From Polytrichum commune (taxonomy: Eukaryota > Streptophyta > Polytrichopsida > Polytrichales > Polytrichaceae), in NCBI GenBank assembly GCA_950295325.1, contig OX485803.1, positions 27,900,001 through 27,964,000 of the forward strand: DNA of 64,000 bases, read 5' to 3'. Position 1 is the stretch's first letter, and each line of letters starts with the position of its first letter. This document shows, in pieces, positions 1 to 64,000 of this stretch. Below the pieces are notes generated by a model. That model saw only the letters and a program-made list of their open reading frames with translations. It ran no database searches and was not told the DNA's origin. Position numbers and translations under genes: made by a program.

Positions 1-346
1 AGTCCTTAACGTACAAGGGATCAAATGGCTCGGAGAATTGGTGCATGAACATATGTGCACTCTGCATTGCAGAATTCTCAAGAATGACGTCGATATAGTC
101 ACCTAGAGCCTGTACTGACGCCACCTCCCACCCCGTCATAGTTGCCCATGTGTTTTGATCCACTGTCCCAACCTTCACCACAAAGAGGATCTTGAATTGC
201 GATGCCTTGACAACTTGTAAGGACCACGCAATGACGAGCCCGTCCTTGGGCACGTATGACTCATCTTCAGGGGTTTCGTGTTCCTGCCATACCATATCTG
301 GTGCGAGCGAGAACCATCTTTCACCAGGTCTTTTTTTGGGGGCCAT
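1..346 (-). CDS. 5' part of a gene homologous to the right-end ParB-like gene (partial)
   Basis: The minus strand is open from an ATG at 346 to the window edge, 115 codons without a stop. The product starts MAPKKR and contains the stretch WEVASVQALGDYIDVILE. This resembles the start (MASKKR) and WTVECAVAQGDYVVIDLE of the right-end gene at 58165, and a shared H-x(4)-PF pattern follows. The ATG lies directly after a splice-acceptor-like TTTTCCTTGCAG, as it does in the right-end gene, so this is probably the first coding exon after a leader intron. A palindrome (373-394) lies just upstream, also as in the right copy. The function of this N-terminal domain is unknown; the ParB-like part would lie beyond the window edge. 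I know no named family for it. Confidence 0.6.
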   Translation of the reverse strand, partial: MAPKKRPGERWFSLAPDMVWQEHETPEDESYVPKDGLVIAWSLQVVKASQFKILFVVKVGTVDQNTWATMTGWEVASVQALGDYIDVILENSAMQSAHMFMHQFSEPFDPLYVKD

Positions 347-372
347 CTGCAAGGAAAATCACACCACTGTTA

Positions 373-394
373 GTTTCGGTCGGGCGACCCAAAC
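373..394. repeat. Palindrome of the TTTGGGTCG family next to the partial gene
   Basis: The sequence GTTTCGGTCGGGCGACCCAA followed by AC is an imperfect inverted repeat of the family that fills 4873-5912. It lies about 30 bp upstream of the ATG at 346, in the presumed leader intron. The right-end homologue has a palindrome in the matching position (58085-58110). Confidence 0.6.
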
Positions 395-416
395 TATCAG
401 AATGGATGTCAAATAT

Positions 417-915
417 GCACGGGTAGATCACTTAGTGCATTTTAAAAACGACGTGCGGCATAATATAGAGAGGATTAAAATCATTTGAAATAAAAATTAT
501 AAAGGAATTCCAAATAATGAAGGGGCCATTAAATGTAGACAATCCCATTATAAGTAAGTTAGATGGACATAAAACGTGGGCCATTAATTTTTTGTAAAAT
601 TAATATAGGGGCTGAAGATAAGGATCCTAAAAGGTGTGTTTAGTATGGTATGTAAATGGGTTTAGGACTCACGGGGATGGATGATGATTGGGAATTCTGT
701 CTGTCCAAAGTTACTTAAAAGGAATATAGAGTACAAATTATTGCAGTGACTTGGACAATATAAGTAATGGAAGGGTGCAAACAAATGGGCCATTTTTGAA
801 ATTTAAGTAATTATAGGGAGGCTTTAATTCAGCCCTTGAAGGTAAATAGCCCCAAAACAAAAAACCCCCAGCCGCACGTGGTGCACAAAAATGTCTTAGA
901 GTGATCTACCCGTGC
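417..915. mobile_element. MITE with terminal GCACGGGTAGATCAC inverted repeats
   Basis: The left end GCACGGGTAGATCAC is matched by its reverse complement GTGATCTACCCGTGC at the right end. Both sides are flanked by a direct repeat aaatat (411-416 and 916-921). The element is 499 bp long, has no coding capacity and is AT-rich inside. Its right half is clearly similar to 11022-11200, so it is a family. The superfamily is unclear: a 6-bp direct repeat is not diagnostic. Confidence 0.7.
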
Positions 916-921
916 AAATAT

Positions 922-1615
922 GTTGAGGTCACACAACTCAAGCCGCGTGAACTTTGATAAATGTCAATAATTATCTGGGATTGGGAGTTAGCTTGATCGT
1001 GTAATACGATTTTTAAAATACTTGGTAAAAAACTTCTTCCCAAGTGTTTTCGTGTTTCCAAGGGCATTTACATTATTCATGTAGATATCTTGTACACCGC
1101 GCTTATTTTGTTTTTAGTATCTTCTATTATGGGATCAATATGAATTTCGTATCTCATAGTTTGGGTCACTCGATCCAAACCTGCAGTTGTGTTTGGGTCG
1201 CTCGACCCAAACCAGTTTCCGTACACTGAAACAACAAAAATTAGTTGTGAATAATATGTATTCTCGACTAATTCTTGTTGTTTCAATTTACGATCGCTAA
1301 TGATACATTGCTTATTATGAAATGCTTGTTATAAAATGCTTATTAAATGATGCTTATTATATAATACATGTGATAGAATGCTTAGAATAGAATGCTTGGG
1401 ATAAGTATAAGAAAAACAAACTTATGCACCAAAAACGTTACCTGTTCTTGCAAGCTTTAGAAGAAGCTTTTCTTGCAAGCTATTTGTGTAATTGGAATCT
1501 GAGAAGCAGTTGTGTTCTAATCTCACAAATACTGGAGACTCTGATGAATCTTAGACCGCTCTACAGACGAAATGAACTAAACTTTTAATGTCGCAACACT
1601 CTGTATGTAAAGGTA
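922..1615. other. Non-coding stretch with two palindromes and AATGCTTATTATA-like repeats
   Basis: I see no gene here. Two TTTGGGTC-type palindromes sit at about 1160-1183 and 1191-1213, the second with the perfect arms TTTGGGTCG and CGACCCAAA around CT. Short direct repeats of the type aatgcttattata occur at 1300-1400. This is probably the leader or intron region of the minus-strand gene at 346. Confidence 0.4.
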
Positions 1616-1965
1616 ATGAGATTTGAAGATCCTAAACCCTCAACACTCCGAATTTCACAAACTCACAACCCTCAAAACTCTGAATCTAATCCTTCAAGCT
1701 ATCACCAATCTGATAATAAACCCTCAACACTCAACACTATAAAGCTCTTAAACCCTCAACACTCTGAATCTAATTCCTTCAAGCGTCAACAATGTAAATG
1801 CTAAACTTCAACACTCTAAACTCAACACTCTAAACTTCACAACCTTCAACACTCTAAAGCTCACTCCTTCAAGCTATGAACATTCTAAAGCTCCTAAACA
1901 CTTCACACTCTGAATCCTTAAACCCTCCACACTCTGAAACGCACAAAGTATCAATACTCTTACGA
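1616..1965. repeat. Degenerate tandem repeat, 'aaccctcaacactctgaatc' type
   Basis: The phrases ccctcaacactc, caacactctaaac and cttcaagc recur many times with small changes over about 350 bp. It is A/C-rich and has no convincing coding content; the short open frame here is only the repeat translated. It lies in the spacer of the left element. Confidence 0.6.
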
Positions 1966-4872
1966 ATAAACCAAAAAGAAGAATCAGACAAGAACCTATA
2001 GCATCTATACTCGCACGATAGAAGACCATAATGTGGAATCTACATGCTCAACCAAAAGAATGGAGGGAGGAAGAGAATGGAGGGAACGCGTCGTTTCGTG
2101 GAGGCGGCGCTTCCAAGAGTGGCGCGGAGCTCACTTTAGGTGAAGAGGTAAAAAGACCCAGGTACGGCAACCTTTCGGGTTTTGTTCCCCTCGGGAAAAG
2201 GCCCTAAACCCCGGCTTTAGGGCACCCCTTGAAACCCTAAACCCACGCAAATAGGTTCACGGGGCAGCTGTAATCCCTAAACCCTTACCACCCGACCTTT
2301 GGCGGCATTTAATTTGTTCCGAAACAGGTACATATCCTAAGGTTTTTCACATAATTTTCAATTTTCCAAAGTATTTGAATTATAGGCTCCTAAGTTGTTT
2401 ACCGACTTTAGATATTAAGTAACACAATTTATTTCACATTCATCTTTGTCATCTGTGTTGATCATCTTTCCCAACTCCGGTTTTAATGTATTGAATTAGA
2501 TTGTCCTTGATTGGGATTGCGTACATTGAAATTAAGCCATTACGTGCTTTATAATTTGACATGTGTAGACATATGGAATCACAAATGCTCAAAGGTAATT
2601 ACACGGTTTAATACTATTAGTATGGTACCATTTGTATGGTTTGATAATATGAATACGTATTTTTATTTATGTGATGGTTAATGTTGGAGGACAAGGCTGT
2701 AGCCTATCATAGATCACTTAAAAAGTAGCTTTACACTAACGCAATTATACAAGTTTATGTATTGTCAATTATTCTAATATGGAATTACGCTAATTGTATT
2801 CATACCTTATCATAGTTTTTTGTCAAAAAGAAAAAATCGGTTGTTTGATTTATATCATGGAACATGAATATATTTATATGGAAGTTGTCATTTAAAGTAA
2901 ACAAGAGAAGCATAACGATTACAATTGTAACCCTTGCACCCCCTTGGAGTTCAACATCATATGAAGCCATTGAAGCAATCACTTTGTTGGTCAATGGTCG
3001 TTACACATATACTAGGGTTTAGGGTTTAGGGTTTAGGGTTTAGGGTTTTCAAATAAGAATAATAAATTGGGACTTGTTGCACCACAAGCCATAAATGATT
3101 GGCACATAGGTCAAATGACGAGGCCTCAGTGCTTGTAAAATTATTTACAAATGTATTTAGTTATGACAACATTTCAATTCAAGGACATGGAATATGGTTG
3201 TGTGGTCGTTTACAAGAAAATTCACTAAAGCAAACATGTGATCTAGTGGTCACAATCAAGTCATCCTTAGTATGAGGATTCTAATAACAAGATTATAGTA
3301 CATACAATCTTTATCATGTTAATATCTTATTTGAAATAATGAAACACTATATACTTATGAAAGGTACATGATATAATTTTGTGAATGTTATAATGACATA
3401 CATTTCCAACTTTACATGCTTTGCTCACAAACACTGCTAAAGATAAAATGGTTTAGGGTTTAGGATAAGTTCAAACATCCTTGGAAGAGTGGAGTAGAAA
3501 GTGATATGTGTGCTTGGAATTTCATAAATGACTTCCACAAAGGTTGGTCATTGTCGCACTTGCATGCTTGATAATGGAGCAATGTTGTGTGCACACATTA
3601 CAAATTAGTTTTTCTCATTTGCACAATGTCATGTTTGTTCTTTGTTGTTAATATCATATACTTCCTCTTGCAATGGTCTCAATAGCTACTTTAGCTGTTG
3701 TGTTTAGTGTCTTTTACCATATGGAGTTAACCCTTAAAGGACATATGCTTTCCCGATACCACACCCAAAACATCTTTTAAAATTCATTTTAAGCATGATT
3801 AACCAATTAATTTACATAGGCTCTATTCTAAAGAAGTATAGATCTTGCTAAGGTGCTCGATTTGGCATTCTAAACCCCCATTTGGTGCAATGGAGTAGAA
3901 GTTTTGAACAAGATTCTCCCAAAATAATACCAAGCCCGTGGGGCAACATTGTCCTTTAAGGGTTAAACATTGTTATCATTTTTTTGTGATAATATTTGTT
4001 AAAATATAGCATAAAATGTGAGTTCAAGTAGAATAATGTCTTGACACATAATTTACTATGTTCCTAAGATGGATGAAAGCAAAGTTGTTGGGGATGATAT
4101 TTCTAAATCGCTTACCACATATTTATTTCCTTTAATGCACTTGCTAGAATACATGTGGCTACGACCCTTCCTTCCAATGGTGCAAGTCATATTCACTTCA
4201 AAAAATAAAAAATGGATACAATATCTCAAAGAGTGACAATACATATTTATTCTACACACATAATATATGTCAATTCTAGTGATCGGGGAGATTTTTGGGC
4301 ATATCCGGTTGAGATCCTAGTTTTTGGAAGTCCAACTGGTTACATGTTGGCATCCTCCAGTTTTCCTTTATTAAATGGGGGTCAATTCTTTAAATTCCTC
4401 TTAAATTATCGGTAAATTGGATGCAGTCTTGAACTTCTACCCGTTATTTCTCAAACTCACCCGGTTCTCCCTGATCATTGGTCACCTCAAGTCACTTGAT
4501 GGTTGGGGCACCGAAGAGCCACGCTTAGTACCATTTTTTCTATTATAAACAAGAAGCGGGAAAGTCTGTCAGAAAGTTTGAACTAATGGCTAAAGGAGAA
4601 TCAAGCGGGAAAGGTATCCAATGAGGAAGCAGAGGGAGCGGAGGCGGACAGTATAAAAGGCCCGCCTTCCCGAAAACATGGTCATTTTTGCTCCTCTCTC
4701 GCTCCTGAAATTGTAGGAAGCTCTCTCACTTGGAGCTCTATTACTAGGTTAGAGCATGCTAGCATTCATCACCAAGCAATCGCAACATCCATCCATGACT
4801 TTAATTTCCCAAAGAGCCTATCTATAGACAATGCTATATTCACGCCGCATTCGACGGCGGAATTTTAGGGTA
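1966..4872. other. Spacer of the left element, no gene seen
   Basis: Nearly 3 kb without a supportable gene. It contains degenerate telomere-like phrases (ccctaaaccc) at 2200-2290 and a true interstitial telomere-type tract at 3013-3048, listed separately. A purine-rich stretch at 2040-2110 could be the reverse complement of a pyrimidine-rich promoter or leader of the minus-strand gene at 346, like the CT-rich region at 56095-56505 in the right element; this is weak. Confidence 0.3.
3013..3048 (+). repeat. Interstitial telomere-type repeat, (TTTAGGG)n
   Basis: About five uninterrupted copies of TTTAGGG, the plant-type telomere repeat. It lies between the two divergent genes of the left element. 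The right element has a longer tract (53800-53879) in the matching place, with the same orientation relative to its genes. Short interstitial tracts also arise by break repair, so chance is possible. Confidence 0.85.
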
Positions 4873-5915
4873 GTTTGGGTCAGTCGACCCAAACCCACCC
4901 CCACATGAGGCAGGTACTAGGGTGGACACAGAGCCCATCCTGCCCCTCAAGGTTTGGGTCAGTCGACCCAAACCTATACTCTCATGAGGCAGGTACTAGG
5001 GTGGACACGGAGTCCATCCTGCCCCTCAAGGTTTGGGTCGGTTGACCCAAATCCACCCTCACATGAGGCAGGTACTAGGGTGGACAAGGAACCCATCCTG
5101 CCCCTCAAGGTTTGGGTCGGTCGACCCAAACCTATACTCTCATGAGGCAGGTACTAGGGTGGACACGGAGTCCATCCTGCCCCTCAAGGTTTGGGTCGGT
5201 CGACCCAAACCCACCCTCACATGAGGTAGGTACTATGGTGCACACGGAGCCCATCCTGCCCCTCAAGGATTGGGTCGGTCGACCCAAACCTATCCCCTCG
5301 TGAGGCAGACACTTGGGTGGACAAGGAGCCCATCATGCCCCTCAAGGTTTGGGTCGGTCGACCTAAACCTATACCCTCATGAGGCAGGTACTATGGTGGA
5401 CACGGAGTCCATCCTGCCCCTCAAGGTTTGGGTCGGTCGACCCAAACCCACCCTCACATGAGGCAGGTACTAGGGTGCACACAGAGCCCATCCTGCCCCT
5501 CAAGGTTTGGGTTGGTCGACCCAAACCCACCCCCACATGAGGCAAGTACTAGGGTGGACTCTGAGCCCTTCCTGCCCTATAAGGTTTGGGTTGGTCGACC
5601 CAAACCTTATCCCACAGTGGGCATGTACTAGGTTTGACTCAGAGCCTATCTCCCCTTACATAATTTGGGACGGTCTACCCAATCCATCCCCACTGTGTGG
5701 GTGCTCTCTGTTATGAGCCTGAACCCATCTTGGGAAAACGTTTGGGTCGCTCGACCCAATTTATTCCCACTGTGTGGATAGACTCTGGATGACCATGATC
5801 CCATCCTGCCATAAGGTTTGGGTTGTTCAACCCAAACCATCCTCACTATGTGGATGGAGTCTGGATGACCATGATCCCATCGTGCCACAAGGTTTGGGTA
5901 GGTCGACCCAAACCC
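4873..5915. repeat. 79-bp tandem array with a palindromic core
   Basis: Copies begin at about 4873, 4952, 5031, 5110, 5189, 5268, 5347, 5426 and 5505, an exact 79-bp step. More diverged units follow to about 5912, including cores near 5586, 5741, 5817 and 5889. The core of each unit is TTTGGGTCGGTCGACCCAAA: two 9-bp arms around a 2-bp spacer. The rest (GAGGCAGGTACTAGGGTGGA and similar) is conserved too. The many overlapping small open frames here are the repeat translated, not genes. Within one 79-bp unit the core is the best conserved part. Confidence 0.9.
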
Positions 5916-7650
5916 AGCCCCACCGTGTGGATGGGCTCTAAATGATAGTGTGTCCATGTGGTACTTTTGGGCCACCCCCTTTCGAGGGAGCCTAAAAGTA
6001 TCACACAAGCCCTTCGGTGAAGGTGGCCTGCACTTGCAGGTGCCCAAGCCGAACCCGGATGATAGGTGTATAACGTGAGTAGTTAGATTTTTAAGGGAAA
6101 TTAAATATGCGTCGTAGTACCTCCAGAGGTTGGGCAATAGTTTTTTTTACAATTGTGGCTCTAAACTCCACTAACCGATTTCATATCTAGTTCTAACCTT
6201 AACATACAACCTATTCTACGCGCAGACGCACCAGCCTTGAAACCAATGCAATCATAATTTGTGAATTGGGATGGTTCTGATACACACCAACCGGGTGTGA
6301 CTCATACCACCCTAGTTCAATGAACGGACTAACGACAATTTGATAGATCATTCAATTATTCCTATTTTTTTACTTAGTTCTATTTAGTTTTCTAAGCGGG
6401 GGAACTTGACCTAAGTCCCACCCTTTACACAAATTCTTTCTTAATTACTTGATTTCGGTTGCACCTCCTACTTCACTACATTCACATATTAGGCATCACC
6501 CCTTACCTGGTTGGTGCACCCCTTATCTCAGAACTTTCTAAGGCCTCGTGCAAGTCCTTTGAAGGTCGAGTAACATTTCAAACCCTTCGGACTTCAACGG
6601 TCTGACGGGTAGTGTCACCCTACCGAGTTAAGTTTCCGATTCGGGTTTCTTGCCAACAAGGATTTACGATTTATTTTGTATGTTTTAATTGTTGAATGTG
6701 TTTACACTGGATAGACCACGAAATCACAACTTAATGGGACTAGAGTGACGGACAACCTGTAGGTTCAACCTGTTGCACAATCTTCATAAATTGGGGTCAT
6801 TACTCCCAATCTATGGGGCCAACAACATAATAGTGGATTCGCGGGTCATTAACCCCATCTTTCCACCAACAACATTCAGAGTGGTCGTGTCGGTGATTAA
6901 TCCGACTTACCATACACGAAACTTACTAATAAATGAAGTTACTACCACAAAACATACCAAGGGCCCCGAAAACAATGGAGTTGGGTATTCCCTTGGCGGT
7001 CAAGTGGTCAAGCCACTTGACCTTACGAGATAGGTGAGTGGATTTAGAGATGCGTACCTTAGCCACGCTCCCTCCAATCCTAAATGGAAGGCTAGCGTTA
7101 GTAAATTTACCTCAATTCTCCTCGGTTGATTTGGGCTCGATGTAGGCCGAGCCGCTACCTCCTTCCTTGCTCCACTTCCCGAGCGTCGACCTTGCCTCTT
7201 TTTTTGTAACTAGTTTGGTAGTAAGCGTACTTTAGTTAACAATTAAAATATAAAATATTTATTCTGCACTGTAATTTAATCCTAAGCATAATATTTATAC
7301 TTAGTGCACCTAATTATATTTCCAATGATAAAAAAATCACTTTAATCGGATAAGAATTGCAAAAGTTATGAGGGTTGGACATGTGAGGTCGATTCAACCG
7401 ACCTTTCCAACCCACCTATCTAACTTCTAACTTCAAAAATTCATAACACATTCCTTACTACTTGGATCTAGGTTTTCCTTATACTATTGGAAAGCTATGA
7501 ACAAGTTCTAACTAGGAAAATTATGACATCAGTAGGTTAAGCTAATAAAAATTCAGCAGACTCCTTGAAACACAACAGTCAATCAAGAAGACTTAAACTA
7601 TGTATCTCACCTTCAACAATTCATATCTAATTCAAATCTTATTCAAATCA
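5916..7650. other. No recognisable gene; possible decayed LTR-like sequence
   Basis: No coding region can be supported. The stretch from about 6400 to 7200 has the feel of retrotransposon LTR or leader sequence (runs such as caccccttac and ggtcattaacccc), but I could not find matching ends or a target duplication. Its right edge is where homology to the DUF7869-type gene starts abruptly at about 7655, so an insertion or deletion here probably removed the front of that gene. Confidence 0.25.
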
Positions 7651-7654
7651 AACG

Positions 7655-8110
7655 TTCTATATGACCCTGGACGACCATTACGTTGGGCCTGCTAGTCAAC
7701 GTCCCCCACCATCTTTCCGCATTGCAGTGGATTGTCATGAAGGTTATATGCTCATTTTGCGTCCTGGAGATGAGACATATGCGAAGCCAGTATGGATGGC
7801 AAGAGCTTTGTCTAAACCAAATTTTGTAACTTCCAGCCCTCATTTTCGACAAATACAAGTGGAGTACTACCGACCGACAGCACGGAATGAAGATGTGATT
7901 CGGTATTATACAGGCTGGGATACAAACCAAAACTTTCGGTGGAAGGTGGATTCTGAGCACGGTCCATCTTGGGTAGATACAGATTCCATATTCATAGCAT
8001 GGAAACCACGGAAAAATCATAGTGGATCAGTGTCCATCCCTCAAAAGTACATAATTTTTGCAAAAGACAACCTTGCTCGGATTGCACAAGAAGCAACCCA
8101 TGTTGAATGA
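7655..8110 (+). pseudogene. C-terminal remnant of a DUF7869-type gene
   Basis: About 149 residues, from DDHYVGPA to a stop at 8108-8110, match the C-terminal quarter of the two DUF7869-type genes at 41544-44673 and 48301-51397. Shared blocks include PSFRxxVDCHEGYM, a GWDT block and FAKDNLARIA. The DUF7869-type core and the N-terminal half are missing, so it cannot be a working copy. The frame is open throughout, so the truncation may be fairly recent. The gene points to the element end at 8641, as in the other two copies. Confidence 0.8.
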
Positions 8111-8602
8111 GAAGTTGGTAGGATTGTGTTAGCGTTATTATAGTTTAATATATAATTGTAGCAATATATATTACTTATATGTGTGTTATTTAAAATTGGG
8201 GCAAAGTTTGGGTAGAACTTACGAATGCTATATTGTTGGGGGGTGGATGAATATCCATTTACTATATTTCAAAACAAATGTGAATTTCATCTTATTATTA
8301 AGTTTGGGACTAAATTGTCAAGTGAAGAAATATGCATTTATTACATGCATTTTGTATGTTGCAATGTTTATATTTTATTGAGAATGCTAATAATAGAAAT
8401 CATTTTATATGTTTTTTTGGGTGAAACTTGTTTGGAGTGCTCTACCCAATGTGTTTTTGTTGATGATGTTGGTGTTGAGTGCTCTACCATATGTGCTTAT
8501 GTCCACACATCATAGATTTGGGATATTAAAACATATAATATATTTGAGATTGTTGACAATATAGTTTCGGCATCATCATGTTGGTTGATCCCTACATTAA
8601 TT

Positions 8603-8641
8603 TGAGACTGGAGAAAGTCTCAATTTAACGAATATAGTGTT
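8603..8641 (+). repeat. Element end: hairpin plus TTAACGAATATAGTGTT motif
   Basis: The motif TTAACGAATATAGTGTT (8625-8641) is preceded by TGAGACT...AGTCTCA, a short inverted repeat. The same pair, in the other orientation, lies at 41143-41180 and 47644-47681, at the same distance behind the DUF7869-type genes. Homology between the three loci stops just outside this motif, which marks it as the element terminus. Confidence 0.7.
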
Positions 8642-45130: not shown

Positions 45131-45150
45131 TTACGAACGATCGTTCGTAA
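45131..45150. repeat. Perfect palindrome upstream of copy A
   Basis: TTACGAACGATCGTTCGTAA is a perfect 20-bp palindrome. It has the same outer TTACG/CGTAA as the right-element palindromes but a different core (AACGATCGTT). A degenerate relative, CGAACGTGCGTTCG, lies at about 44826-44839. Confidence 0.85.
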
Positions 45151-47643: not shown

Positions 47644-47681
47644 AACACTATATTCGTTAATTGGAGACTTTGGAAAGTCTC
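47644..47681 (-). repeat. Element end motif and subterminal hairpin, copy B
   Basis: AACACTATATTCGTTAA (47644-47660) is followed by GAGACTTTGGAAAGTCTC (47664-47681), a palindrome with one central mismatch. Outside it the MULE-like coding frame (LVDKVNFKG) starts at once, which fixes the border. Confidence 0.75.
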
Positions 47682-51397: not shown

Positions 51398-51457
51398 GGC
51401 CACTACAAGTGATCCACATGAAGAGTATGTCAAAATATCCCATTCAATAAATGTCAT

Positions 51458-51990: not shown

Positions 51991-51993
51991 TGC

Positions 51994-54379: not shown

Positions 54380-54592
54380 TTAAGGTATTACAAGCATATG
54401 AATTCTCCCCATATCTCGATGTTTTGGTTTTGTTAATTGCGTTTCACAACTTATTGCGATAATTGAGGGATTCACAAGTATTTCTTGGCAAAGTTTCATG
54501 AGAATTTGTGGCCAATTGGTATATTGCCCCAATTGCATTTGAATCCCACCTTTGAGAAGAAAAAGAATTCTTATACTGAAGTTAATCAACAA
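54380..54592 (-). pseudogene. Decayed hAT transposase C-terminal fragment
   Basis: WPQILMKLCQEILVNPSIIA aligns with WPKIMQLWQEVILIPSSIAI of the fragment at 9747-10295, and the following ER-x-FS region is degraded. It is about 70 codons long. It is similar in kind to the left-hand fragment but shorter and more diverged. Confidence 0.55.
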
Positions 54593-55085
54593 GACATCCT
54601 TTTATTGAATATTATTACTATTCTCGAAATATAGAGTCCCCTCCATAGCTCGGGGGGTGCACTGTACTAAACATGTACGAGTTATACGTGAGTGCACAGG
54701 AGGGGTATTGATTTGGACCTTGCCGTATTGCATATACATATGGTATACATGTTATAATTTATAGTTACGTACATATATGGAAGGCCTTTAAAAAGTATAC
54801 AATAATTGTACTTGTATGGTATTGTTACTATACTATATATCATAAGTGTTCATATTGGATAAGTTTTCATAAGGTTTGGTTTGTTGGGAGAGTTTATAGG
54901 ATGCGGAGGAAGTTTGGCAATCGTTGGGTGGAGTATAGGGATCCATTTGACTTGATGGACCGTCCATCAAACGTGGAGATTGGTTTATGTTGGTATCAAA
55001 AGGGGCTAACAACAAGTGGACATATGATCTTATTGATCATTCCATGGTAGACTTAGAGACAATAATTGCATTTGTATACTTATGT
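54593..55085. other. No gene seen
   Basis: AT-rich non-coding DNA between a hAT remnant and a MITE. The short open frame at 54833-55015 has no features. Confidence 0.3.
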
Positions 55086-55093
55086 TAATGACT

Positions 55094-55406
55094 CTCGGGG
55101 GGGGGGGGCAGTCATTGGTTGGAGTAGCAATATACGTGCAAACAAATGATAGGGTATTTTAAAAACATGGGGGCAAAAAATTATAAATGGACTTAAGAGT
55201 AATATAGGGTATCAAAAATGGCACTGGACATCTTTAAAGTAGTATAGGGTATGGAATAATAGGTAATTTGGAATTATAAGTAATGCAAGCCATTTTTCTA
55301 TTAACCCAAAGTAGAAATTTATATAATGATAGCATGTGAAAAAATAAGAGAATTGAAAGTAATACCCCCCTATATCCTTATTTTTTTAACACACTGCCCC
55401 CCCGAG
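55094..55406. mobile_element. G-tract MITE, intact copy
   Basis: 313 bp. Ends CTCGGGGGGG...CAGT and ACTGCCCCCCCGAG, with an 8-bp target duplication taatgact (55086-55093 and 55407-55414). It is the reverse-orientation twin of the interrupted copy at 11628-14510 and served to reconstruct that one. It is non-coding. The 8-bp duplication points to a hAT-type MITE. Confidence 0.92.
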
Positions 55407-55414
55407 TAATGACT

Positions 55415-56094
55415 AATATATATGAATGGATGTTTTTTTGTGTATACATATTGTCGCTTGTATATTTATTGTTGCAATTGTATGTGTATTACTTCATTTC
55501 ACAAAAAATCACTTGTATATATTAGGGGGTTTTTAGAGTATGCAGTGAACGCACGTGATTCTAGGTTTTAATGAAAGGTGCTCCCCCACTCTCCATAGAG
55601 GCCACACTAGAAATTGTAGTTAGTTTCTCTCATTGTTTGGAGTTCCAAAATGATATTATTATTATTATTGATGTCATTTAATTGTTGACAATGACATAAT
55701 AATTTACTCAACCTCACACCCTAATATAATTTCCTAAAATAATGAATACTTTCTAGAGCTCGTATGAATATTTCACTCATTATCAAAAGTGAAGAGAAGA
55801 GGCAACGAGATGGCTCATTTTATATTTAGAGTGACATTTAGTGTGACTTTTAACTTGCCTTAGCATAAACATAAGATGTTATTATGACATAATATGATAA
55901 TAAAATCACCAAACTAAGTATAAATTAAACCCCTATTTCAATAACAAATATAGACCAGTAGGGTGATGCCACGTAAGGGTATAGGCCGGCGATTGGGTGC
56001 GACGTTTGGGGTAGGGACACGTGGAGGCACGCCATTGTTTTAGGGTTCCAAGTACTCCAGCTCCCTTTCGCAAGAGCCTCTTCGTGCCTTTCCT
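55415..56094. promoter_or_regulatory. Region upstream of the ParB-like gene
   Basis: No coding region. It contains a G-box-like gacacgtggag (about 56018-56028) shortly before the pyrimidine-rich tract. This could be the promoter of the plus-strand gene; no firm TATA box or start site can be given. Confidence 0.3.
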
Positions 56095-56505
56095 TTCCTT
56101 CTCTATCCTCTCTTGCTTCTTTTCCTTCTACTTTGCTCTTGCTTCTCTTGCTTTAGGGTTATAGGGTTTCAAAGTGCACCAGCTCCCTTTTGCCCTCCTC
56201 TTCGCGCTTTTGCTTCCTTCTCTTGCGGCTCTTGTTTCTATTGTTTCTCTTGCTCATCTTCTCTTTCCTCTCTTGTTTCCTTCTCTTGCTTTTGCTTTCC
56301 TTCTCTTGCTTTTGCTTCCTTCTCTTGCTTATCTTCTCTTTCCTCTCTTGTTTCTCTTGCTTATCTTCACTTTCTTCTCTCTCTTCTCTTGCTTCTCTTG
56401 CTTATCTTCTCTTTCCTCTCTTGTTTCTCTTGCTTCTCTTGCTTCTCTTCACTTTCTTCTCTCTCTTCTCTTGCTTCTCTTGCTGATATTGCTTCTCTTT
56501 CCTTA
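56095..56505 (+). repeat. Pyrimidine-rich CTTCTCTTG repeats in the presumed leader
   Basis: Long run built from cttctcttgctt, tctttcctctcttg and similar phrases. Open in all three frames with Leu/Ser/Phe-rich products, but this is a low-complexity artefact. It probably lies in the promoter or 5' leader of the ParB-like gene. Confidence 0.8.
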
Positions 56506-56942
56506 CAATTCAAAACCCATTCTTGCTGGTCAATTGCTGACGCGCGTCAGAGCTAGAGTAAGTTCTCCTTGTTTGCTGCTCATTAGCTTATTAGCTCATT
56601 AGCTCATTAGTAAGTTATGCTTGCTACTTGCTTGCTTGTTGCTCATTAGATCATTAGGATGCTCATTGTTGCTTGCTACTGCTCATTAGGTTATTTTCAG
56701 TTGTTGATTTCAGTTGTTGCAAGGGTAATTAGTGTTTCAGATGTTGCTCATTAGGGTTTCAGTTGTAGCTTCACCATGTAGTTCATTATATTTTTTGCAT
56801 ACAAATCAATAGTTTCCTTTCACTTGTGTTGCATGAATCTGATTTATGAGCAACTTTTTTTGAGTAGTTCTCAATGTTGAATCATGCATGTGCACATTGA
56901 ATTACTAGAGGTTTCTGACCTCAATTTTATTGTTCATTGCAG

Positions 56943-57285
56943 TTGGTATTAGCTGCAGCAGGAGCAGCTAGTTGTGGTTTAGGAGCAAACACTCTAGAAA
57001 GGTAAGTTTTTTAGAACATTGCAATTGCATTTTGTATGATTGCAATTTTGGGTTGTTGTGGTTTAGGGCTTAAGGTTAGCATGAGAGAATGTGAGATTCC
57101 AGTTTCAAGGAATTCTGAATTTGTTTAGTACTTTGTCTATGGCTACATTCTAAGAATCATTTAGTTATGGACATGTCAGTGTTCTGAAAGTGCCTTATGT
57201 TGTCAATCTGCAGTGCAGTGTTTGCTATTGCAGTGAAGTAAGATTGCATTCTTATTTGGAGGGCAAAACCATATTGGACGACAAG
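56943..57285 (+). other. Predicted non-coding leader exons of the ParB-like gene
   Basis: An exon 56943-57001 is bracketed by TTCATTGCAG and AAAG|GTAAGT. Another, about 57214-57285, is bracketed by CAATCTGCAG and ACAAG|GTAAAG. Neither keeps a frame with the ATG at 58165, which itself follows an acceptor, so they would be 5'-UTR exons. This rests on splice consensus only. Confidence 0.35.
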
Positions 57286-57339
57286 GTAAAGTCCCGAAAA
57301 ACACGGAGCATTAATGAAAACATTGGAATACGCAAACAT

Positions 57340-57830
57340 TACAATAGCCTTTATAATCCTCAAAGTTTACGGACGCGCGTCCGTAAACTTTGTGGATCTT
57401 TGTGTAGGTGAGAAACAAGACTCTCAAACAACATATTACGCAAACGAAGCCAAATATTGTAATATTAGGCATATTAAAATAGCCTTTATAATCCTCAAAG
57501 TTTACGGACGCGCGTCCGTAAACTTTGTGGATCTTTGGGTAGGTGAGAGACAAGCCTCTCAAACAACATATTACGCAAACGAAGCCAAATATTGTAATAT
57601 TAGGCATATTAAAATAGCCTTTATAAAACTCAAAGTTTACGGACGCGCGTCCGTAAACTTTGTGGATCTTTGGGTAGGTGAGAGACAAGCCTCTCAAACA
57701 ATATATTACGCAAACGAAGCCAAATATTGTAATATTAGGCATATTAAAATAGCCTTTATAATACTCAAAGTTTACGGACGCGCGTCCGTAAACTTTGTGG
57801 ATCTTTGTGTAGGTGAGAAACAAGACTCTC
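57340..57830. repeat. 135-bp tandem array with 32-bp perfect palindromes
   Basis: Four perfect 32-bp palindromes, core TTACGGACGCGCGTCCGTAA with outer CAAAGT/ACTTTG, lie at 57361, 57496, 57631 and 57766, an exact 135-bp step. The linking sequence is repeated as well. A near-perfect relative is at 57961-57987. The 5' array at 51994-52584 has the same core but different, also complementary, flanks. A 225-codon frame runs through on the plus strand and a 184-codon one on the minus strand; both are repeat artefacts. Confidence 0.92.
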
Positions 57831-58084
57831 AAAAAATATATGTAGGTGAGAAACAAGACTCTCAAAAAAATATATGTAGGTGTGAAACAAGACTCTCAAA
57901 AAAAAAATATATTAACCGTAACTTGAATACATTGATATTTACCACCATACTATCTTTGCGAAGTTTACGGACGCGCGTCCGTAACTTATAGAGATATTTG
58001 AGTATATAATATACGCGTTATGCGTATTTGGAAGAAATGTATCTTTTCATTTGGATCCAAAAATGTAATTGAGAAAATTTACAA

Positions 58085-58110
58085 AACTTTACGAATGCGC
58101 GTTCGTAAAG
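58085..58110. repeat. Near-perfect palindrome just upstream of the ParB-like start codon
   Basis: TTACGAATGCGCGTTCGTAA with outer ACT/AGT, one central mismatch. It lies 55 bp before the ATG at 58165 in the leader intron, like the palindrome at 373-394 in the left element. Confidence 0.85.
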
Positions 58111-58164
58111 TATGATCTATATCTTTTGCCAAGAATTCTAACTTATCTATCTTATCATTTGCAG

Positions 58165-61100
58165 ATGGCATCTAAAAAGAGACATGCAATTGAGATGTTC
58201 GCAGAAGCTCTCATTCCTCCGCTACCAGAAGCCATCAAAGACATAAGTCCCAACGACCATTACAAGCCACAAGATGAAATTGTGGATAATTGGACAGTAT
58301 TGGTAGAAAAGGACGAGAAAGAAATATTTGTGCTTAGATTTGCATATCAAATGAAGACGGACATAGATGAAGCTAAGAAGTGGATAAAGCTTAAATCGTG
58401 GACAGTAGAGTGTGCAGTGGCACAAGGGGATTATGTAGTAATAGACCTTGAGAAGAAAGAAGATCGGGTCACTTTCATTTTGCACGAATCCTACCACCCC
58501 TTCAACAAAAATGAGTGTGAGAATGCTAGTACAGATGCGGCTTGCTTCAATCTCCAGACGGAGTTCCAAGACTATGCATGCAATGCACCTTGGACGGGTA
58601 AGCGGCTTGGACGACTCTTGAACAATGTAACAAGAGTAAATGGAGCCTTGCTAGAGGCCAGAAAGGGGAAAGAGAAGAAAAAACAAGTCATTCCTGAACG
58701 GCCCAAGTGTGTGCCTAAACCAGTGCCGGAATCCTCAAGGCCCTCGCAGAGTGGTGCATCAAGAGGGAGCAGACAGGCGAGTAAACGCTCTCACTCGCAG
58801 ATGGACTCTGGACTAACAGAGGGTCCGGATGTCAGCTCTACACTGACTGTCGCTCCACTCCTCAAAAAGGGTCAACGCCCTGACGCCGAACTCTCAACAA
58901 AAATATTCCAAGAGTTCGATGAGAAGACGAAGGGATGCTGGCCCCTTGGCAGGTATTTTACTTTCGAAGTAGACGTCTACAAATGCCACAAGGGCACCGA
59001 AAGTATGAATACCAGAGCAAAATAAGAAAGCGGGGTATGGTGGCAAATGAACAACATCATGAACAACCCCAAGTTTGACAGGCAGACCATTTGTGTGACA
59101 CCAAAGGATCCTATCATTGAAGTCAACGAAAAAAATTGGCCGATTCTCAAGAATGGAAAGTTCTACATTGTCGACGGCCAACATAGTGTAATGGCTGCAA
59201 AAGCTCTCCTTGAAGACGACGAGTGGAAAAGCCCATTAAAGGAGACAATCCGATATTGGAAGGCATTCGTCGTGCATTCCAAGGACTCGAACCAACTCAT
59301 AGCAATATTTACCTTCATGAACCAGGGGAATAAAGTGAGGCAGTTCGAGGCTTCATGGGCAGCCAACATCGTGGCTGGGAGGACCTTGTGGGTGGAGCAC
59401 GAATGTCCCCCAAAAGAAAGAGATAATACTGTCGTGAAGAACCCAAAATGGCAGGTATGTTACTCAAATAGATTTACGGACGTGCGTCCGTAAATGTGGC
59501 CCTTCTCCTCCCACTGATTCAAATATTTGAATTTAATCTGTACTGAATTCAATGTTCTGATTTCTTGCAATTCGTGCCTCTTGCAGACATTCAGCAATGC
59601 CATATTGACAAAGTTCTCGAGTATAGACATGAAGACAAGCGGCATGAAAACAGTGCATGAATTAAAAGGCGAACTCAAGCTCATCACTGCAACAGAAGAG
59701 ACGTGGTCAATATGGTTGCGACTTTTCGATGCCCATAACAACGGCGACCTTGTCAATCCAGATACGGAGAACACCTACAAGAGCGACTCAAAAGTTAAGG
59801 TACCACCAATCCTGCGAGAGTTCTTTCGTCCCCTCCAAGGATTGATGGACTCGGAGCTGTACAGGGCAGCAGAACACATTCTTCTAGAAACTCCTAGAAG
59901 AACTCTGCCCTATCCCAAAATCTTTCTGAAGCGGCCGAAGCACATGAAGCCATCCACGTACCACATTAAGGAATGGTGCGATTACAGAAAGAAGAAGACC
60001 ATGGCTGTAAGGGAGATTAGCAAATTGCTACCCACCCACAACCTCATTAATAGTGATGGTGAGATCGTGTGGGAGAATTGGAGGAAGCTGAAGGGTGAAT
60101 ACCACATCAATGGCGTCTCAATGCGAGCTTTGATAAGAGGGGCATCATCCTTCCTTGCCCAACGATCTAGAAGGAACGAAAAGAAGGGATCCATCGACGA
60201 GAGGGAGGCAGGGTTGTACGTTCATTTTCTCGATAGGAAAAAGAACGCGAAATTTGGAGGGTTTGCAAGATTCTGCACGGTCACAAAGGCCATGAAGTTC
60301 GGCACATGGGACACCCATGCTTCAAGAGCCTCTGTGAGAGATGACCCCAGGGGTTGCCCTTTCGCCATTTTTGATTTTCGTGCAATTCCTGGAGCTTGGA
60401 AACAAGACGTTGTGGGAACACCCTTCTACGACCCCTTCTTAAAAGCCTTCAAGAGCTATCGCTCGCCTGCCCTCTTCGAGCCTCATGTGTGGTTATGGAT
60501 TGTAGAGCAAGAGAGGTCTACACCCATTGTCCATCTGTACACATCAACGATGGACCTCGAATACGATATGTACCACAGCACCTACATCCCAGCGAAGACA
60601 GAAGGGATCACTGTCATTCAAGAGGCAAGGGGGGTGAAGCAAGTGGGAGCTGTGCAGCTATATTTCTTAATACGCAAGTCTTCCCCAACTGGACGATTGC
60701 CCATTAAACCACACGAGGTGTTCAGGAAAGTCTATTCGTTGCCGCCACCACATCCCAAGGAGCTTGTTGAGGAGACAATGCATGCAATCTATCCGGCGTT
60801 CGAGCTCCGGATGGACTTTTATATAGGGGTCTTGAAGGCTTTAACTGTCATGAGTGAGACAGTTTACAACGTCTTCGGAGGCACGAAGTTTATGTATGCA
60901 GCATTGGTGAGTATTTGTTTGTCTTTCAACCCACCTATCTTTTGCATAGTTATTTTACGGACGCGCGTCCGTAAAAAACCCAATATCAGGTGCATGTGAA
61001 TTTTACGACCGTGCGTCCGTAAAATTGTCCAACTTTTGAGTGGTGGTTTTACGAACGCGCGTCCGTATAATGTGTTGACATCTAACCTCATTTATATGCA

Positions 61101-63670
61101 ATCACCACAATTGTTCTTATCTAATTTTCTTGTTATGGTCCAGATGCTTGGCTTGCAGGTGAATTCTTTTGTGCAGGATTCCGACTACGATGACGCACAT
61201 ACTCACAGGGTAATGGCCTCCAAAATGGATATCCAGGACATCATGGACGTCTTTACACCCCATCCTGTTGTGCCTCTCTCTTCTAGAGAAGAGGCAATGC
61301 CCGGAATGGAGACAGACCCTGAAGAGGACCAGGATCCCAGTTCCCCAAGAGTGCATCCCACGACACAAGAGCCTTTACACGGCCTTGTTCGCGACCCAAT
61401 TAATCCAAGTGCTTTCCTGCTGGGAACAGACGACACGGATGCGCAGGAGGCACGCGTGAACTTCACTCCGATAAGGGTCCCTCATACCCCTGTTCTCTCA
61501 CCTTTTGGGACTCCCACCTCTCGAGTTGGATTTCCCTCAACTGCGGGTCCATCTCGTGCTCCAGGTGTTATGGCCGAGAAGGATGTGGACCTTGCGGCAG
61601 AAGCCGGATGCACCGCTTCATCTGGAGGGGGATCTCAACATTCAGATCTACCCCCTATGGAGGGGAGGGATGTGTTGGAGTTGATATTGAGGCCTGATAT
61701 CTCTCTATATCGTGAGAGTCGACGAAAGAGGAACAAGACGCCATACAACGAATACCCTGAAGGCGCGGTCTTGGAGCTCTCCGATGAAGATGAGGATGAG
61801 ATTAGGATTCACAATGCCATCTCTGCCTTGCCTACGGAGCCTGGCAAGGTGAAGAAAGAGCCGATGTCAGTGTCCGAATTGGACGAGAAGATGGAGAGGC
61901 GAATGAAGGAAGAGCTTGACCAACGGCTTCGAGAAGCTAACGAGGAGCACGCCAAAAAGATGGCCGCCATCCAAGCTGAGATGGAGCAAGCTAGGTTGGA
62001 GTCTGCTCGAAGGCACGCTGATCTCATGGCCCAAAATCAGCAGTTCTTGGCCCAGAGCCAACAATTCATGAGCTTGATGCAGAGCTTGCAGGCAAGGCCC
62101 CAAGTTGTATATGCGCCTCCCGAGGCGGGCATGTCCATGCCCCCCACTCTCATGCGGCCTCCATCTAGTAGCCATGCAGTTTATATACCCGAGCATGCTT
62201 ATCCAGCTCCCACGTTGATTGTCCCACCCTCTCCCCTTGTTGTCGCCACTCCAGAGGAGCCCTCCTCTCATCCTACAGGAGTGGAGGAGATATCGGCACG
62301 TGACATGGCGGGTGCCGCCGAGACAGATGTCAATGAAGGCAACGCCCCCATCGGCGATGAAGATGTACATATGCAGGGCAGCCAAGACTCCACAGATGAG
62401 GATCAGCCTTACGTGGATACTCAAGGGTCGCAAGCGGCTGGAGACACCTTGTTGGTGGTCGAAGATCTGGACAATTTTGCGGGCGCGCGTCCGGATCCTG
62501 TGCCCATGACGGGGCCAGGTGAGGGAGGCACTGCTGGCGCGGACCTCGCCCCTGAAGAGGTAATCAACCTTTGAGCATGCCTCCCACGTTACGGACGCGC
62601 GTCCGTATCTTCCTTGTCTGCCTCCTTCGTGGCGTGTGTATATTATCGAGTTCAATCCTCGACTTCGCCCGACGGGTGGATACAATTTTGTTAGCATAGA
62701 TTCCATTAACTTCAACAGATATTTTTTTGCGACAATGTATATTATTCACCAAATGTGTATCACCAATTACATTAATACCAATTTTTCAACTGGATGGTTC
62801 GGATTATTTTATGGCCTTATAATTCTTTGTTGAGTTTATCCATGCTTGTCAATTGGTTTTCTTGAGTAGTACCATTTACCTAGATAGAATGTTCCATCAC
62901 AGGGTCCGTCGGAGATATGTCGCAACCCCGCGGGAAAACCAAGCGCGCCCATGATGAAACCGTTCATAATATTTGACCTCAATGGGGTGCTTTGTCATTC
63001 CAAACATATCTCGCATAGTGCGTCCAAGGGGCCCTTCCGTAGTCCAGAAGACATGGATTACGGCGGACATTTCGATACTCTCATAAATAAGAAGGTTGTA
63101 CGTGCCCGCCCCGGCTTGAGGAGCTTCCTTCGTGAGGTCCTTGGCTTCGCCCATGTCATCATCTGGAGCTCTATGCTCATGGACAACACGAAGGCCATCG
63201 TCGGTTTCCTTTTCCGAGAACTCGCAATGCCATGCTTGCTTCTCGGTCAAGAACACTGCGATGACCTGTATGACCGTAGTGGCAATATTGTACCCAAGGT
63301 CGGAGGAGGTCGTGGGCCTCAATTCTTAAAGGTCCTGAGGAAGAACCTCTGGGTGGGCGTCCCTATGTTGGAGGGGGTTCCCCACGGTTGTTGGCCCACC
63401 CCGGATAACACACTCCTCATTGACGACAGCCCGGCAAAGAGTATTCTCAATCCCCCGGGCAATTGCATATTCCCGGATTCTTGGGAAAGCGATAGAAATG
63501 ACAACTTTCTAGAGAGTGAACTAGGACCCTACATTAGGAGGCTTGCCTATCACCCCGGAAGTGTCCCGGATTTTGTGCTCTCCAACCCAATTGGCAATAG
63601 GCCTCTAGGCCCACAAGATGAGGAATTTAGGAGATTGTACGGCTACGCTAGACTCAATAAATTAATATGA
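58165..63670 (+). CDS. Large multi-exon gene: unknown domain, ParB-like motif, coiled coil, FCP1/HAD-like exon
   Basis: Exons 58165-59454, 59587-60906, 61144-62559 (or to a stop at 62574) and 62903-63670 are all joined in phase 0 by GT-AG introns; the ATG follows TTTGCAG directly. Domains by approximate residue: 1-150, a domain shared with the left-end partial gene; about 337, FYIVDGQHSVMAAKAL, which resembles the DGxH motif of ParB/DGQHR-type domains; 430-870, unknown, with VWLWIVEQERSTPIVHLYTS; 1110-1175, Lys/Glu-rich coiled coil; from 1342, an FCP1-like HAD phosphatase with FDLNGVL, VIIWSS and LLIDDSP. The second Asp of the usual DxD is Asn, so activity is doubtful. An in-frame TAA at 59023-59025 splits exon 1. 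Skipping the GAG|GTAATC donor gives a shorter product ending at 62574. The function is unknown. Confidence 0.6.
59472..59495. repeat. Palindrome in intron 1 of the ParB-like gene
   Basis: 24 bp, core TTACGGACGTGCGTCCGTAA with outer AT/AT. One central base departs from the CGCG core. It is inside the 132-bp intron 59455-59586. Confidence 0.9.
60953..61070. repeat. Three palindromes in intron 2 of the ParB-like gene
   Basis: A perfect 24-bp copy at 60953-60976 (outer TT/AA), an imperfect one at 60999-61026 (TTTTACGACCGTGCGTCCGT then AAAA) and one at 61047-61070 (TTTTACGAACGCGCGTCCGT then ATAA). All lie in the 237-bp intron 60907-61143. Confidence 0.9.
62590..62607. repeat. Palindrome in intron 3 of the ParB-like gene
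   Basis: TACGGACGCGCGTCCGTA, perfect, in the predicted intron 62560-62902. Its presence here supports reading this stretch as an intron rather than 3'-UTR. Confidence 0.85.
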
Positions 63671-63762
63671 AAACTTTGATGATTTTGGGTTTGTACTTGG
63701 ACTCTCCATGTAAATATCTAACATTTCTCCCCTTATCTTTGTAATGTATTTTTGTGTCTTAG

Positions 63763-64000
63763 TTGCCTCACCAAGCACCCAAAAGTGTCGTCAATGGCAT
63801 GTCTGCATCTCAGGCAGACACCGGCTCCCCTTCCCTTGGTATGAGCGACGTTGCAATGCCTTCACTATTCCAATATTCGGCCGTCGATGCTGCCTCTGCT
63901 GTTGATTACTCCAAAGACTCCGGGTTTGAAGACGGAGTCGTGGATAGCCCTCCTGCAAAGGTTGCAAAACTCAATTACGCTCCAAGTCCATCTCCATCTT
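63763..64000 (+). CDS. Putative further exon, open to the window edge
   Basis: After the acceptor TTTTGTGTCTTAG (ending 63762) a frame is open for 79 codons to the window end, starting LPHQAPKSVV. It is rich in Ser, Ala, Asp and Pro with no recognised domain. It starts in phase 0, so it could be joined to exon 3 (ending 62559 in phase 0) as an alternative to the FCP1-like exon, or it may start another gene's coding part. I see no donor near the end of the FCP1-like exon that would join it directly. Confidence 0.45.
   Translation, partial: MPHQAPKSVVNGMSASQADTGSPSLGMSDVAMPSLFQYSAVDAASAVDYSKDSGFEDGVVDSPPAKVAKLNYAPSPSPS

Follow-up and report, generated by a model that had tools for sequence, protein, structure and literature searches.

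A 64,000-nucleotide window of the moss Polytrichum commune (contig OX485803.1) carries, at its two ends, look-alike blocks in which a DUF7869-type gene diverges from a second gene, called ParB-like in the original prediction and DGQHS here, after a motif of its product. Are these blocks members of a family of large transposons, as was predicted, and what might the palindromes that accompany their genes be for?

The right element is a complete transposon

The right element (R; 47644..64000, continuing to 64956, 956 bp past the window) is a complete DNA transposon of 17,313 bp with inverted ends and a CACT target site duplication (TSD), and a copy 97.6% identical over 17.4 kb is found elsewhere in the genome. 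The terminal inverted repeat on the DUF7869 side (AACACTATATTCGTTAATTGGAGACTTT, plus strand, 47644..47671) matches the far end at 27 of 28 bases. A second terminus with target duplications, expected if the original prediction was right, lies 17.3 kb from the first and repeats it in inverted orientation. Inverted ends matching at 27 of 28 bases are shared by all four R-type copies, and all 18 left-type pairs, themselves picked by the end motif from the first 100 end-motif sites listed on contig C1 (0.6-48 Mb), have both ends. The TSD is 4 bp in 22 of the 22 end pairs examined, compared with 4 of 272 in a mispaired control. Adjoining the end is a small inverted repeat, GAGAC..GTCTC (47664..47681), a candidate transposase site found at the same two positions (21 and 34) in all five full copies, with two GTCTC near the far end.

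R is inserted into a foreign open frame. The 3' part of an unnamed gene, transposase-like by eye, abuts it on the minus strand (46226..47643), and a single open frame closes when the flanks are joined minus one CACT; a Pfam search with this split gene matched no family. The internal order of R is as predicted, with the end motif at 47644-47660, the DUF7869 gene, palindromes, a telomere-type (ACCCTAA)n tract between the divergent genes (53800..53880) and the ParB-like ATG at 58165, directly after a splice acceptor. The tract recurs in seven of eight long copies scanned and is absent from copy E.

Other members of the family and linkage of the two genes

The left element (1..8641) is a decayed relic of a high-copy family, and its layout also agrees with the prediction: the ParB-like start on the minus strand (346-1, ATG at 346 directly after an acceptor), palindromes (367-400, 1191-1212 and an array at 4873-5939), a TAGGGTT telomere-type tract (3013-3048), a DUF7869 remnant on the plus strand (7631-8110) and the end motif on the minus strand (8625-8641). 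A search of the 20 kb beyond the window did not reveal a second end. Both look-alike elements are therefore real, but they are not the only ones, as a third element lies in the middle (41143..45150), with an end motif at 41143, a frameshifted DUF7869 gene on the minus strand (41544-44757) and the palindrome TTACGAACGATCGTTCGTAA (45131-45150); its far end was not found. The window holds three family members, one of them complete, and three end motifs at up to three mismatches, all exact, versus 0.23 expected. A complete copy of the left family (F) has its genes in the same order as R. R and F share 62-65% identity in DUF7869 and 33-38% in the DGQHS protein, and their palindromes differ.

Genome-wide, the 17-bp end motif occurs 1,183 times (594+589) on contigs C1-C7 and a control motif 0 times. 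Among the 100 sites listed on C1, adjacent convergent end pairs within 25 kb number 18, of which 15 are 14.4-18.1 kb apart (median 16,952 bp) and the eighteenth 22.75 kb, and there may be perhaps hundreds of ~17-kb elements in this one 408-Mb genome. The inverted ends, the 4-bp TSDs and the end motifs bear out the predicted family of large transposons, and open frames in several copies, together with near-identical pairs, suggest recent activity.

The predicted linkage of the two genes also holds across the genome. A divergent ParB-like exon lies within 30 kb of 65 of 85 scored DUF7869 exons, versus 0.3 after random shifts; 54 of these 65 pairs are 7.5-9.7 kb apart, and another ten, at 10-28 kb, may include neighbours. 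The scored lists comprise the best 98 of 1059 DGQHS candidates and the best 85 of 1862 DUF7869 candidates, and this selection may account for the 20 of 85 DUF7869 places that have no partner in them; 33 of the 98 ParB-like places are likewise partnerless. Copies with clear ends were predicted to hold both genes. All five full-length copies read (R, A, C, D and F) do so, but two short copies (s1 and s2, 3.6 and 4.8 kb) with clear ends and TSDs lack the ParB-like gene and exact palindromes. Because s1 and s2 are internal deletions of the same 17-kb element, with deletions that may have come before or after insertion, we do not count them against the family. In copy B, one end and the ParB-like side are present and DUF7869 is absent.

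Several genes and a large size would also suit a cluster of host genes or an integrated virus. The TSDs, the ends and the dispersion over contigs C1-C7 of both the end motifs (1,183) and the scored DGQHS places (the best 98 of 1059) rule this out, leaving it a negligible probability; in addition, none of the element ORFs scanned with Pfam has a viral domain, and no relative of the DGQHS protein was confirmed in viral contigs.

The DUF7869 gene encodes a putative transposase

As predicted, the DUF7869-type gene of R is intact, with two minus-strand exons (51397-49993 and 49823-48301; splice sites set by eye) that encode 975 amino acids without a stop. Exon 1 (49993..51397) carries HDKMDH, containing the first aspartate of a putative DDD triad, and exon 2 (48301..49823; Pfam DUF7869, E=4e-38) carries LDN and THDDID, containing the second and third. 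Aspartates D421, D424 (35/35), D546 (27/27) and D588 (27/27) are invariant. DUF7869 is very probably a DDD cut-and-paste transposase that acts on the ~28-bp ends and generates the 4-bp TSD, perhaps of Sola type, and a Pfam family of unknown function thereby gains a likely use.

The DGQHS gene, its neighbours and selection

On the opposite side, all on the plus strand, lie DGQHS exon 1 (58165..59454, with one in-frame TAA at 59022-59024), exon 2 (59587..60906), an exon 3 or downstream ORF (61177..62559), an FCP1/SCP-like ORF (62888..63670; Pfam NIF, E=7e-14) and the start of a further small conserved ORF (63763..64000, continuing to 64194). The NIF ORFs of both element families score above the Pfam cut-off of 21.8 bits (52.2 and 58 bits). 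The canonical FCP1/SCP phosphatase motif is DxDxT/V, and since DLNGV replaces it in both families, catalysis is doubtful. The accessory ParB-like/FCP1-like protein of the original prediction is thus present in both its parts, but the two do not share one ORF: the FCP1/NIF-like domain is encoded further downstream, by an ORF that may be another exon of the DGQHS gene.

The ParB-like label is unsupported as worded, resting on the DGQHS motif and on sub-threshold Pfam matches. The best ParB/Srx-type profile match, to DUF6551, falls below cut-off (E=0.012; 14 of 50 members at E<=1), and both it and a sub-threshold match to DUF1015 fall at the DGQHS motif. None of the 50 DGQHS-protein members scanned matched the ParBc or DGQHR families at the Pfam cut-off, PDB sequence and profile searches with the DGQHS protein returned nothing relevant and no ParB, and its AlphaFold model was uninformative (pLDDT 34.8). 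Together with the palindromic sites and the telomere-type tract, the motif and the two sub-threshold matches could point to a literal ParB/parS system, in which protein and palindromes would segregate the element, load replication factors or tether an extrachromosomal or replicating form. This is improbable given that no ParA-like or replication domain was found in the element ORFs scanned with Pfam, that no ParB match was significant, and that the sites are spread over introns and promoters rather than gathered in one cluster.

The main element genes are under purifying selection. The dN/dS ratio is 0.04-0.09 for DGQHS exon 1 (at dS 0.4-0.8), 0.09-0.14 for exon 2 (at dS 0.2-0.7) and 0.15-0.37 for exon 3, and in comparison with copy D it is 0.14-0.23 for DUF7869 and 0.11-0.16 for NIF. 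For the close copies R and A, dN/dS is high and noisy (DUF7869 exon 1, 0.76; DGQHS exon 1, 0.58). Stops are present in DUF7869 exon 1 of D, in exon 2 of C, and in exon 3 of both. For R-C and R-D, the DGQHS exons have a dS ~2.5-15 times as high as the DUF7869 and NIF blocks do.

Each family carries its own palindrome

Each family has its own two-fold palindrome (general pattern TTACGNACGNNCGTNCGTAA), with 713 and 9,731 exact sites and 0 for controls; for the larger count the scan fixed the arms by pattern, so that it reveals free centres and not constant arms. Exact palindromes total ~10,000 in the genome and 11-30 in each full copy read. At the centre, R-type copies mostly have CG (39 of 48). 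Most palindromes lie in promoters, introns and spacers. In R, a diverged palindrome occupies the DUF7869 intron (TTACGGATGTACATCCGTAA, 49921..49940), and others, mostly in an array of 95-bp units, lie upstream of the DUF7869 gene (51994..52585). The stretch 57338..58111 holds an array whose 135-bp unit has an unrelated backbone, together with two palindromes immediately before the DGQHS gene; further palindromes lie in DGQHS intron 1 (59472..59495), in intron 2 (one perfect and two imperfect, 60953..61088) and downstream of exon 3 (62590..62607). A palindrome shortly before the ParB-like ATG, as originally reported, is thus seen on both the left (367-400) and the right (palindromes up to 58111). 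Although 48% of R is coding, none of its 13 exact-core palindromes falls in coding DNA; in F 2 of 30 do, both inside exon 3.

Palindromes are 96.3% and their flanks 62.9% identical between R and D, and 94.7% and 79.1% between R and C, in MAFFT alignments that may anchor on the palindromes; R and A show no excess conservation (98.2% versus 99.0%). Given that many palindromes sit in tandem arrays of varying unit length, they might be hairpin or slippage repeats that propagate themselves without a protein partner. We find this unlikely, since one palindrome occurs on two unrelated array backbones in R and also singly in introns, and since palindromes are conserved so much better than flanks, with the caveat on anchoring just given. 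Likeness among palindromes could also come from gene conversion.

The transposase-bound repeats of CACTA and hAT elements are subterminal. This precedent, and the presence of palindromes on either side of the DUF7869 promoter in both R and F, would fit internal DUF7869 transposase sites that serve synapsis, transposition enhancement or autoregulation. However, the exact core comes no closer than 3.8 kb to the DUF-side end or 2.3 kb to the other end in R and F, which rules out terminal transposase sites; looser matches (<=2 mismatches) get closer, in R to within 2.3 kb of the DUF side and in F to within 0.5 kb of the far end. It is the different small repeat GAGAC/GTCTC that adjoins the ends in all five copies, the short copies have intact ends without exact palindromes, and the palindrome changed between R and F while DUF7869 remained far more alike than the DGQHS protein. 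Internal transposase sites are therefore a rather unlikely reading, if a less unlikely one than hairpin repeats or ParB/parS.

Among database relatives, palindrome type tracks DGQHS clade, as judged by peptide motifs chosen after inspection of the alignment. The F-type motif is found in 13 of 24 F-clade proteins, the R-type in 8 of 19 R-clade proteins and the M-type in 9 of 12 of a third clade. A further type, RPRGRK, occurs in the exon-2-only P0092 and P0093 (no clade given) and in R-clade P0103; two off-clade matches, one M-type-like in the N-terminal region of P0129 and one to TSAQT in P0102, were taken as chance. The co-variation could be plain co-inheritance.

A possible role in anti-silencing

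The data show that the elements have moved and how they are built, that their two genes are linked and under selection, and that the palindromes are conserved. We propose that the DUF7869 transposase would cut at the ~28-bp inverted ends with a 4-bp target duplication, and that the divergent block would encode the DGQHS-motif protein, further exons or ORFs and the FCP1/NIF-like protein. The palindromes would be sites for a dimeric protein that the element itself encodes, most likely the DGQHS product; bound along the element, this protein would keep the element's chromatin and promoters active by sequence-specific anti-silencing. That the palindromes are binding sites of an element protein is somewhat probable, and anti-silencing as their purpose is a tentative reading with a little less than an even chance. 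The whole explanation, a ~17-kb cut-and-paste family with a dimeric palindrome-binding protein used in anti-silencing, may equally well hold or fail.

Tentatively, and with slightly less confidence than in that whole, the family may represent an independently evolved, self-encoded anti-silencing or coating system in a non-MULE transposon. Each lineage would have a dimeric palindrome code of its own, with half-sites around CG-NN-CG, read by a new DGQHS-motif family and changing in concert as the protein diverges, and blocks would recombine between lineages. If true, whether host silencing repeatedly drives transposons to invent codes becomes testable, and the lineages would offer natural pairs of DNA-binding protein and palindrome for comparison.

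Comparison with known systems

The original prediction considered this not to be a described system. Literature searches gave no match for this combination of features; the transposase itself, however, may be a member of the known Sola superfamily. Sola transposons have a DDD-type transposase and a 4-bp TSD, occur in moss (Sola1 in Physcomitrella) and in some cases exceed 15 kb (PMC10741241, PMC9033089). TSD, moss host and size are shared here, as would be the putative DDD-type transposase; palindrome arrays and a DGQHS or FCP1-like protein are not described for Sola in the portions of the literature searched. A DGQHS motif in suitable context and palindromic sites are shared with the ParB/parS and ParB/Srx (DGQHR) systems, but neither sequence nor structure gave a significant match, the scanned ORFs hold no ParA-like domain, and the sites are dispersed. 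FCP1/SCP-like (NIF) CTD phosphatases share a Pfam NIF match above cut-off in both families, but the DLNGV substitution leaves phosphatase activity doubtful.

VANDALs are MULEs. VANDAL/VANC systems are reported to use family-specific short motifs in tandem repeats that change with the element-encoded protein and lie within introns, intergenic and upstream regions (PMC5735166, PMC10398659). Clustered family-specific motifs in non-coding parts are found here too, but the ends, TSD and transposase are different, the motifs are two-fold palindromes of 20-24 bp, and anti-silencing is a predicted role. Because none of the element ORFs scanned with Pfam has a MULE domain, the palindrome system would work like VANC without being a VANDAL member. 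If the palindromes are indeed read by an element protein, they would provide a second, apparently unrelated case of self-recognition beside the VANDALs of Arabidopsis.

Ends, target site duplications and copies

The 17-bp end motif AACACTATATTCGTTAA occurs at three sites in the window (8625-8641 on the minus strand, 41143 and 47644 on the plus strand; 0.23 expected), all directly past the 3' end of a DUF7869 gene, the putative transposase gene. In the 407.8 Mb of genome searched (64 contigs) it has 594 + 589 sites, compared with 0 and 0 for the control. The predicted second terminus of the right element (R) lies 17,313 bp from 47644, 956 bp past the window, and carries an inverted copy of the motif. 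R and three similar copies elsewhere with both ends present (A, C and D) have lengths of 17.3, 17.35, 17.4 and 19.1 kb, in agreement with the proposed transposons of over 16 kb, share an inverted repeat of ~28 bp (27/28 matching), and are flanked by the 4-bp target site duplications (TSDs) CACT, ATGG, TTTA and TTGT. The first 100 motif sites listed contain 18 adjacent convergent pairs no more than 25 kb apart, all with ends of the left-element type; 15 of the 18 are spaced 14.4-18.1 kb (median 16,952), compared with 3 divergent and 6 same-strand neighbors. Matching 4-bp flanks were seen in the first 17 of 17 convergent pairs and then in the 18th, compared with 4 of 272 mispaired combinations of the 17-pair set. 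The sequences themselves demonstrate movement by way of short inverted ends, with the target staggered by 4 bp.

Joining the flanks of the right element with one CACT yields a single long frame through the junction, and retaining both copies breaks it, indicating that the element interrupts an open frame. The unnamed split gene (46226-47643 and positions 957-1856 of L005, DNA beyond the window) is largely open, resembles a transposase by eye and matched no Pfam family. Copy A is 97.6% identical to R across 17.4 kb, and ~38 DUF7869 exon-2 places, R included, among the best 85 of 1862 encode a product that matches the R protein at 99-100% identity; therefore, amplification of the family looks recent.

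The right element is complete, but has an in-frame TAA in exon 1 of the gene first called "ParB-like", here named DGQHS after its motif. The middle element has a frameshifted DUF7869 gene and its own palindrome type; its far end was sought and not found. The left element is, by sequence comparison, a relic of a high-copy family: relative to F, a complete copy, its first 976 bp are 92.6% identical and its DGQHS part 78.6%, and a search for its second end found none. The window also contains a Ty3/gypsy-type LTR element (28416-39445) with identical 300-bp direct repeats at 28416 and 37885, 9,469 bp apart. Its open gag-pol frame (31564-37824) encodes 2086 aa, in which Pfam identifies gag, RT, RNase H and integrase. 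Open reading frames at 26365-28231 look hAT-like by eye, matched no Pfam family, and adjoin a G-rich tract that has long inverted repeats on its two sides (25975-26343). A repeated block (13535-14490, 20102-21054 and 23941-24567) includes one direct (92-93%) and one inverted (80-90%) copy.

Gene order and linkage

R, A, C, D and F share one order: end, DUF7869 gene reading towards it, palindromes, telomere-type tract, palindromes, divergent DGQHS gene of two or three exons, FCP1/NIF-like (NIF) ORF, one or two small ORFs, and end. The interstitial telomere-type tract (53800-53880 and 3013-3048 in the window; similar in A, B, C, D and F) occupies the spacer of the two divergent genes in each family, in 7 of 8 long copies scanned.

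Among the best-scored places (98 of 1059 for DGQHS exon 1, on contigs C1 to C7; 85 of 1862 for DUF7869 exon 2), 65 of 85 DUF7869 places have a divergent DGQHS exon 1 within 30 kb, compared with 0.3 for a random-shift control; 54 of these 65 pairs are spaced 7.5-9.7 kb, and 3 of the 85 show other arrangements. Conversely, a DUF7869 partner accompanies 65 of the 98 places for DGQHS. Exons without an in-frame stop number 47 of 98 for DGQHS and 67 of 85 for DUF7869. The predicted linkage of the two genes holds at 65 of these 85 DUF7869 places and in five full copies; two short left-family copies lack DGQHS, and copy B (L011-L014) has the far end and DGQHS side without DUF7869. Homology of copy B to R begins inside the palindrome array of 95-bp units, and in the gene part B is near-identical to copy A.

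In the short copies (L061 and L062; 3,606 and 4,780 bp) both ends and the TSDs are still present, and the exact palindromes have been lost along with the DGQHS gene. Both are internal deletions with similar left breakpoints, ~2.93-2.96 kb into the element. This suggests that the palindromes and DGQHS gene are dispensable in cis for transposition, although the short copies may have moved only before the deletion.

Selection and probable block exchange

Where divergence is high enough to be informative, dN/dS is 0.04-0.14 for the DGQHS exons in pairs with C or D, and 0.14-0.23 for DUF7869 and 0.11-0.16 for NIF in pairs with D. Values for exon 3 are 0.15-0.37, the small ORFs give no clear signal (0.08-0.81), and values for R-A, a closely related pair, are noisy and reach 0.76. 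Stops are present in DUF7869 exon 1 of D (two), exon 2 of C (one), and exon 3 of C and D (one each). For the DGQHS exons, dS is 0.37/0.19 (R-C) and 0.82/0.73 (R-D), higher than for DUF7869 (0.08/0.04 and 0.23/0.17) and NIF (0.03 and 0.19), and blocks have therefore probably been swapped between lineages.

Palindromes

The right-family palindrome is TTTACGGACG-NN-CGTCCGTAAA, whose 24-bp form with a CG center has 713 exact genome sites (control 0); the left-family form, TTTGGGTCG-NN-CGACCCAAA, has 9,731 (control 0), and the middle element carries TTACGAACG-AT-CGTTCGTAA. Among the left-family sites listed the middle two bases vary, as expected for arms read by a putative dimer. Exact cores number 13, 12, 11, 12 and 30 in R, A, C, D and F; 0 of 13 (R) and 2 of 30 (F) fall inside coding exons, coding sequence being 48% of each element. 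The outermost are at least ~2.4 kb away from either end of R and F; when two mismatches are tolerated, a few more lie closer, at 2.3 kb from the DUF side in R and at 0.5 kb from the far end in F.

Two arrays in R, with units of 95 and 135 bp, carry the same palindromes on unrelated backbones. Between R and D, palindromes are 96.3% and flanks 62.9% identical (11 of 13 alignable); for R-C the values are 94.7% and 79.1% (12 of 13), and for R-A, a pair too close to tell, 98.2% and 99.0%. Among database relatives, predicted proteins that read into non-coding DNA beside an exon, palindrome type tracks protein clade: the F type accompanies 13 of 24 F-clade proteins, the R type 8 of 19 R-clade proteins, and the M type 9 of 12 in a third clade, the remainder having no palindrome, one of ambiguous form or another variant (RPRGRK). 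Because the change was shared by sites whose surroundings are unrelated, the simplest account is selection exerted by a common, putative palindrome-binding protein; gene conversion could also keep the palindromes alike.

Encoded proteins

At E<=1 the DGQHS profile detects at least 53 proteins among the 7,990 candidates scored, those that shared the most words with it. Against Pfam, no family exceeded the cut-off for the DGQHS protein; DUF6551 came closest (E=0.012). Of 50 members, 14 hit DUF6551 at E<=1, and the match falls on the DGQHS motif where positions are shown. DUF6551 is linked to the ParB/Srx fold, and at this sub-threshold level "ParB-like" is a lead only. The NIF ORF, which would encode an FCP1-like protein, exceeds the Pfam cut-off in both families. 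The canonical active-site motif of NIF/FCP1-like phosphatases is DxDxT/V, where this ORF has DLNGV.

Named DUF7869 relatives occur in Ceratodon purpureus and Physcomitrium patens, which makes a moss host probable. Across 37 aligned DUF7869 rows, HDKMD, LDN/MDN and THDDID show little or no variation. Counted over the rows with a letter at the position, Asp is constant at D421 and D424 (35/35), D546 (27/27) and D588 (27/27), and these residues would fit a putative catalytic triad of the DDD type; AlphaFold gives a model of middling quality (pLDDT 66.5). A small GAGAC/GTCTC inverted repeat near the DUF-side end, at positions 21 and 34 in all 5 copies compared, and a pair of GTCTC close to the far end are candidate transposase sites. 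We infer that DUF7869 carries out the movement.

Comparison with known systems

According to the published descriptions cited, Sola transposons encode DDD enzymes and make 4-bp TSDs; Sola1 of Physcomitrella is one of them, and lengths above 15 kb occur (PMC10741241; PMC9033089). The DUF7869 elements are alike in TSD length, size above 15 kb and occurrence in moss, a likeness of published features rather than of sequences, and on these features DUF7869 may be a Sola transposase. In the model we propose, DUF7869 would move the element via its short inverted ends with a 4-bp stagger at the target, and a palindrome-binding regulator would keep the element active. The regulator is proposed from the placement and family specificity of the palindromes, which resemble those of VANC targets as far as these are described in the cited accounts: VANC targets lie in introns, upstream regions and intergenic tandem repeats (PMC5735166) and vary by family (PMC10398659), and the palindromes occupy similar places and are likewise family-specific.
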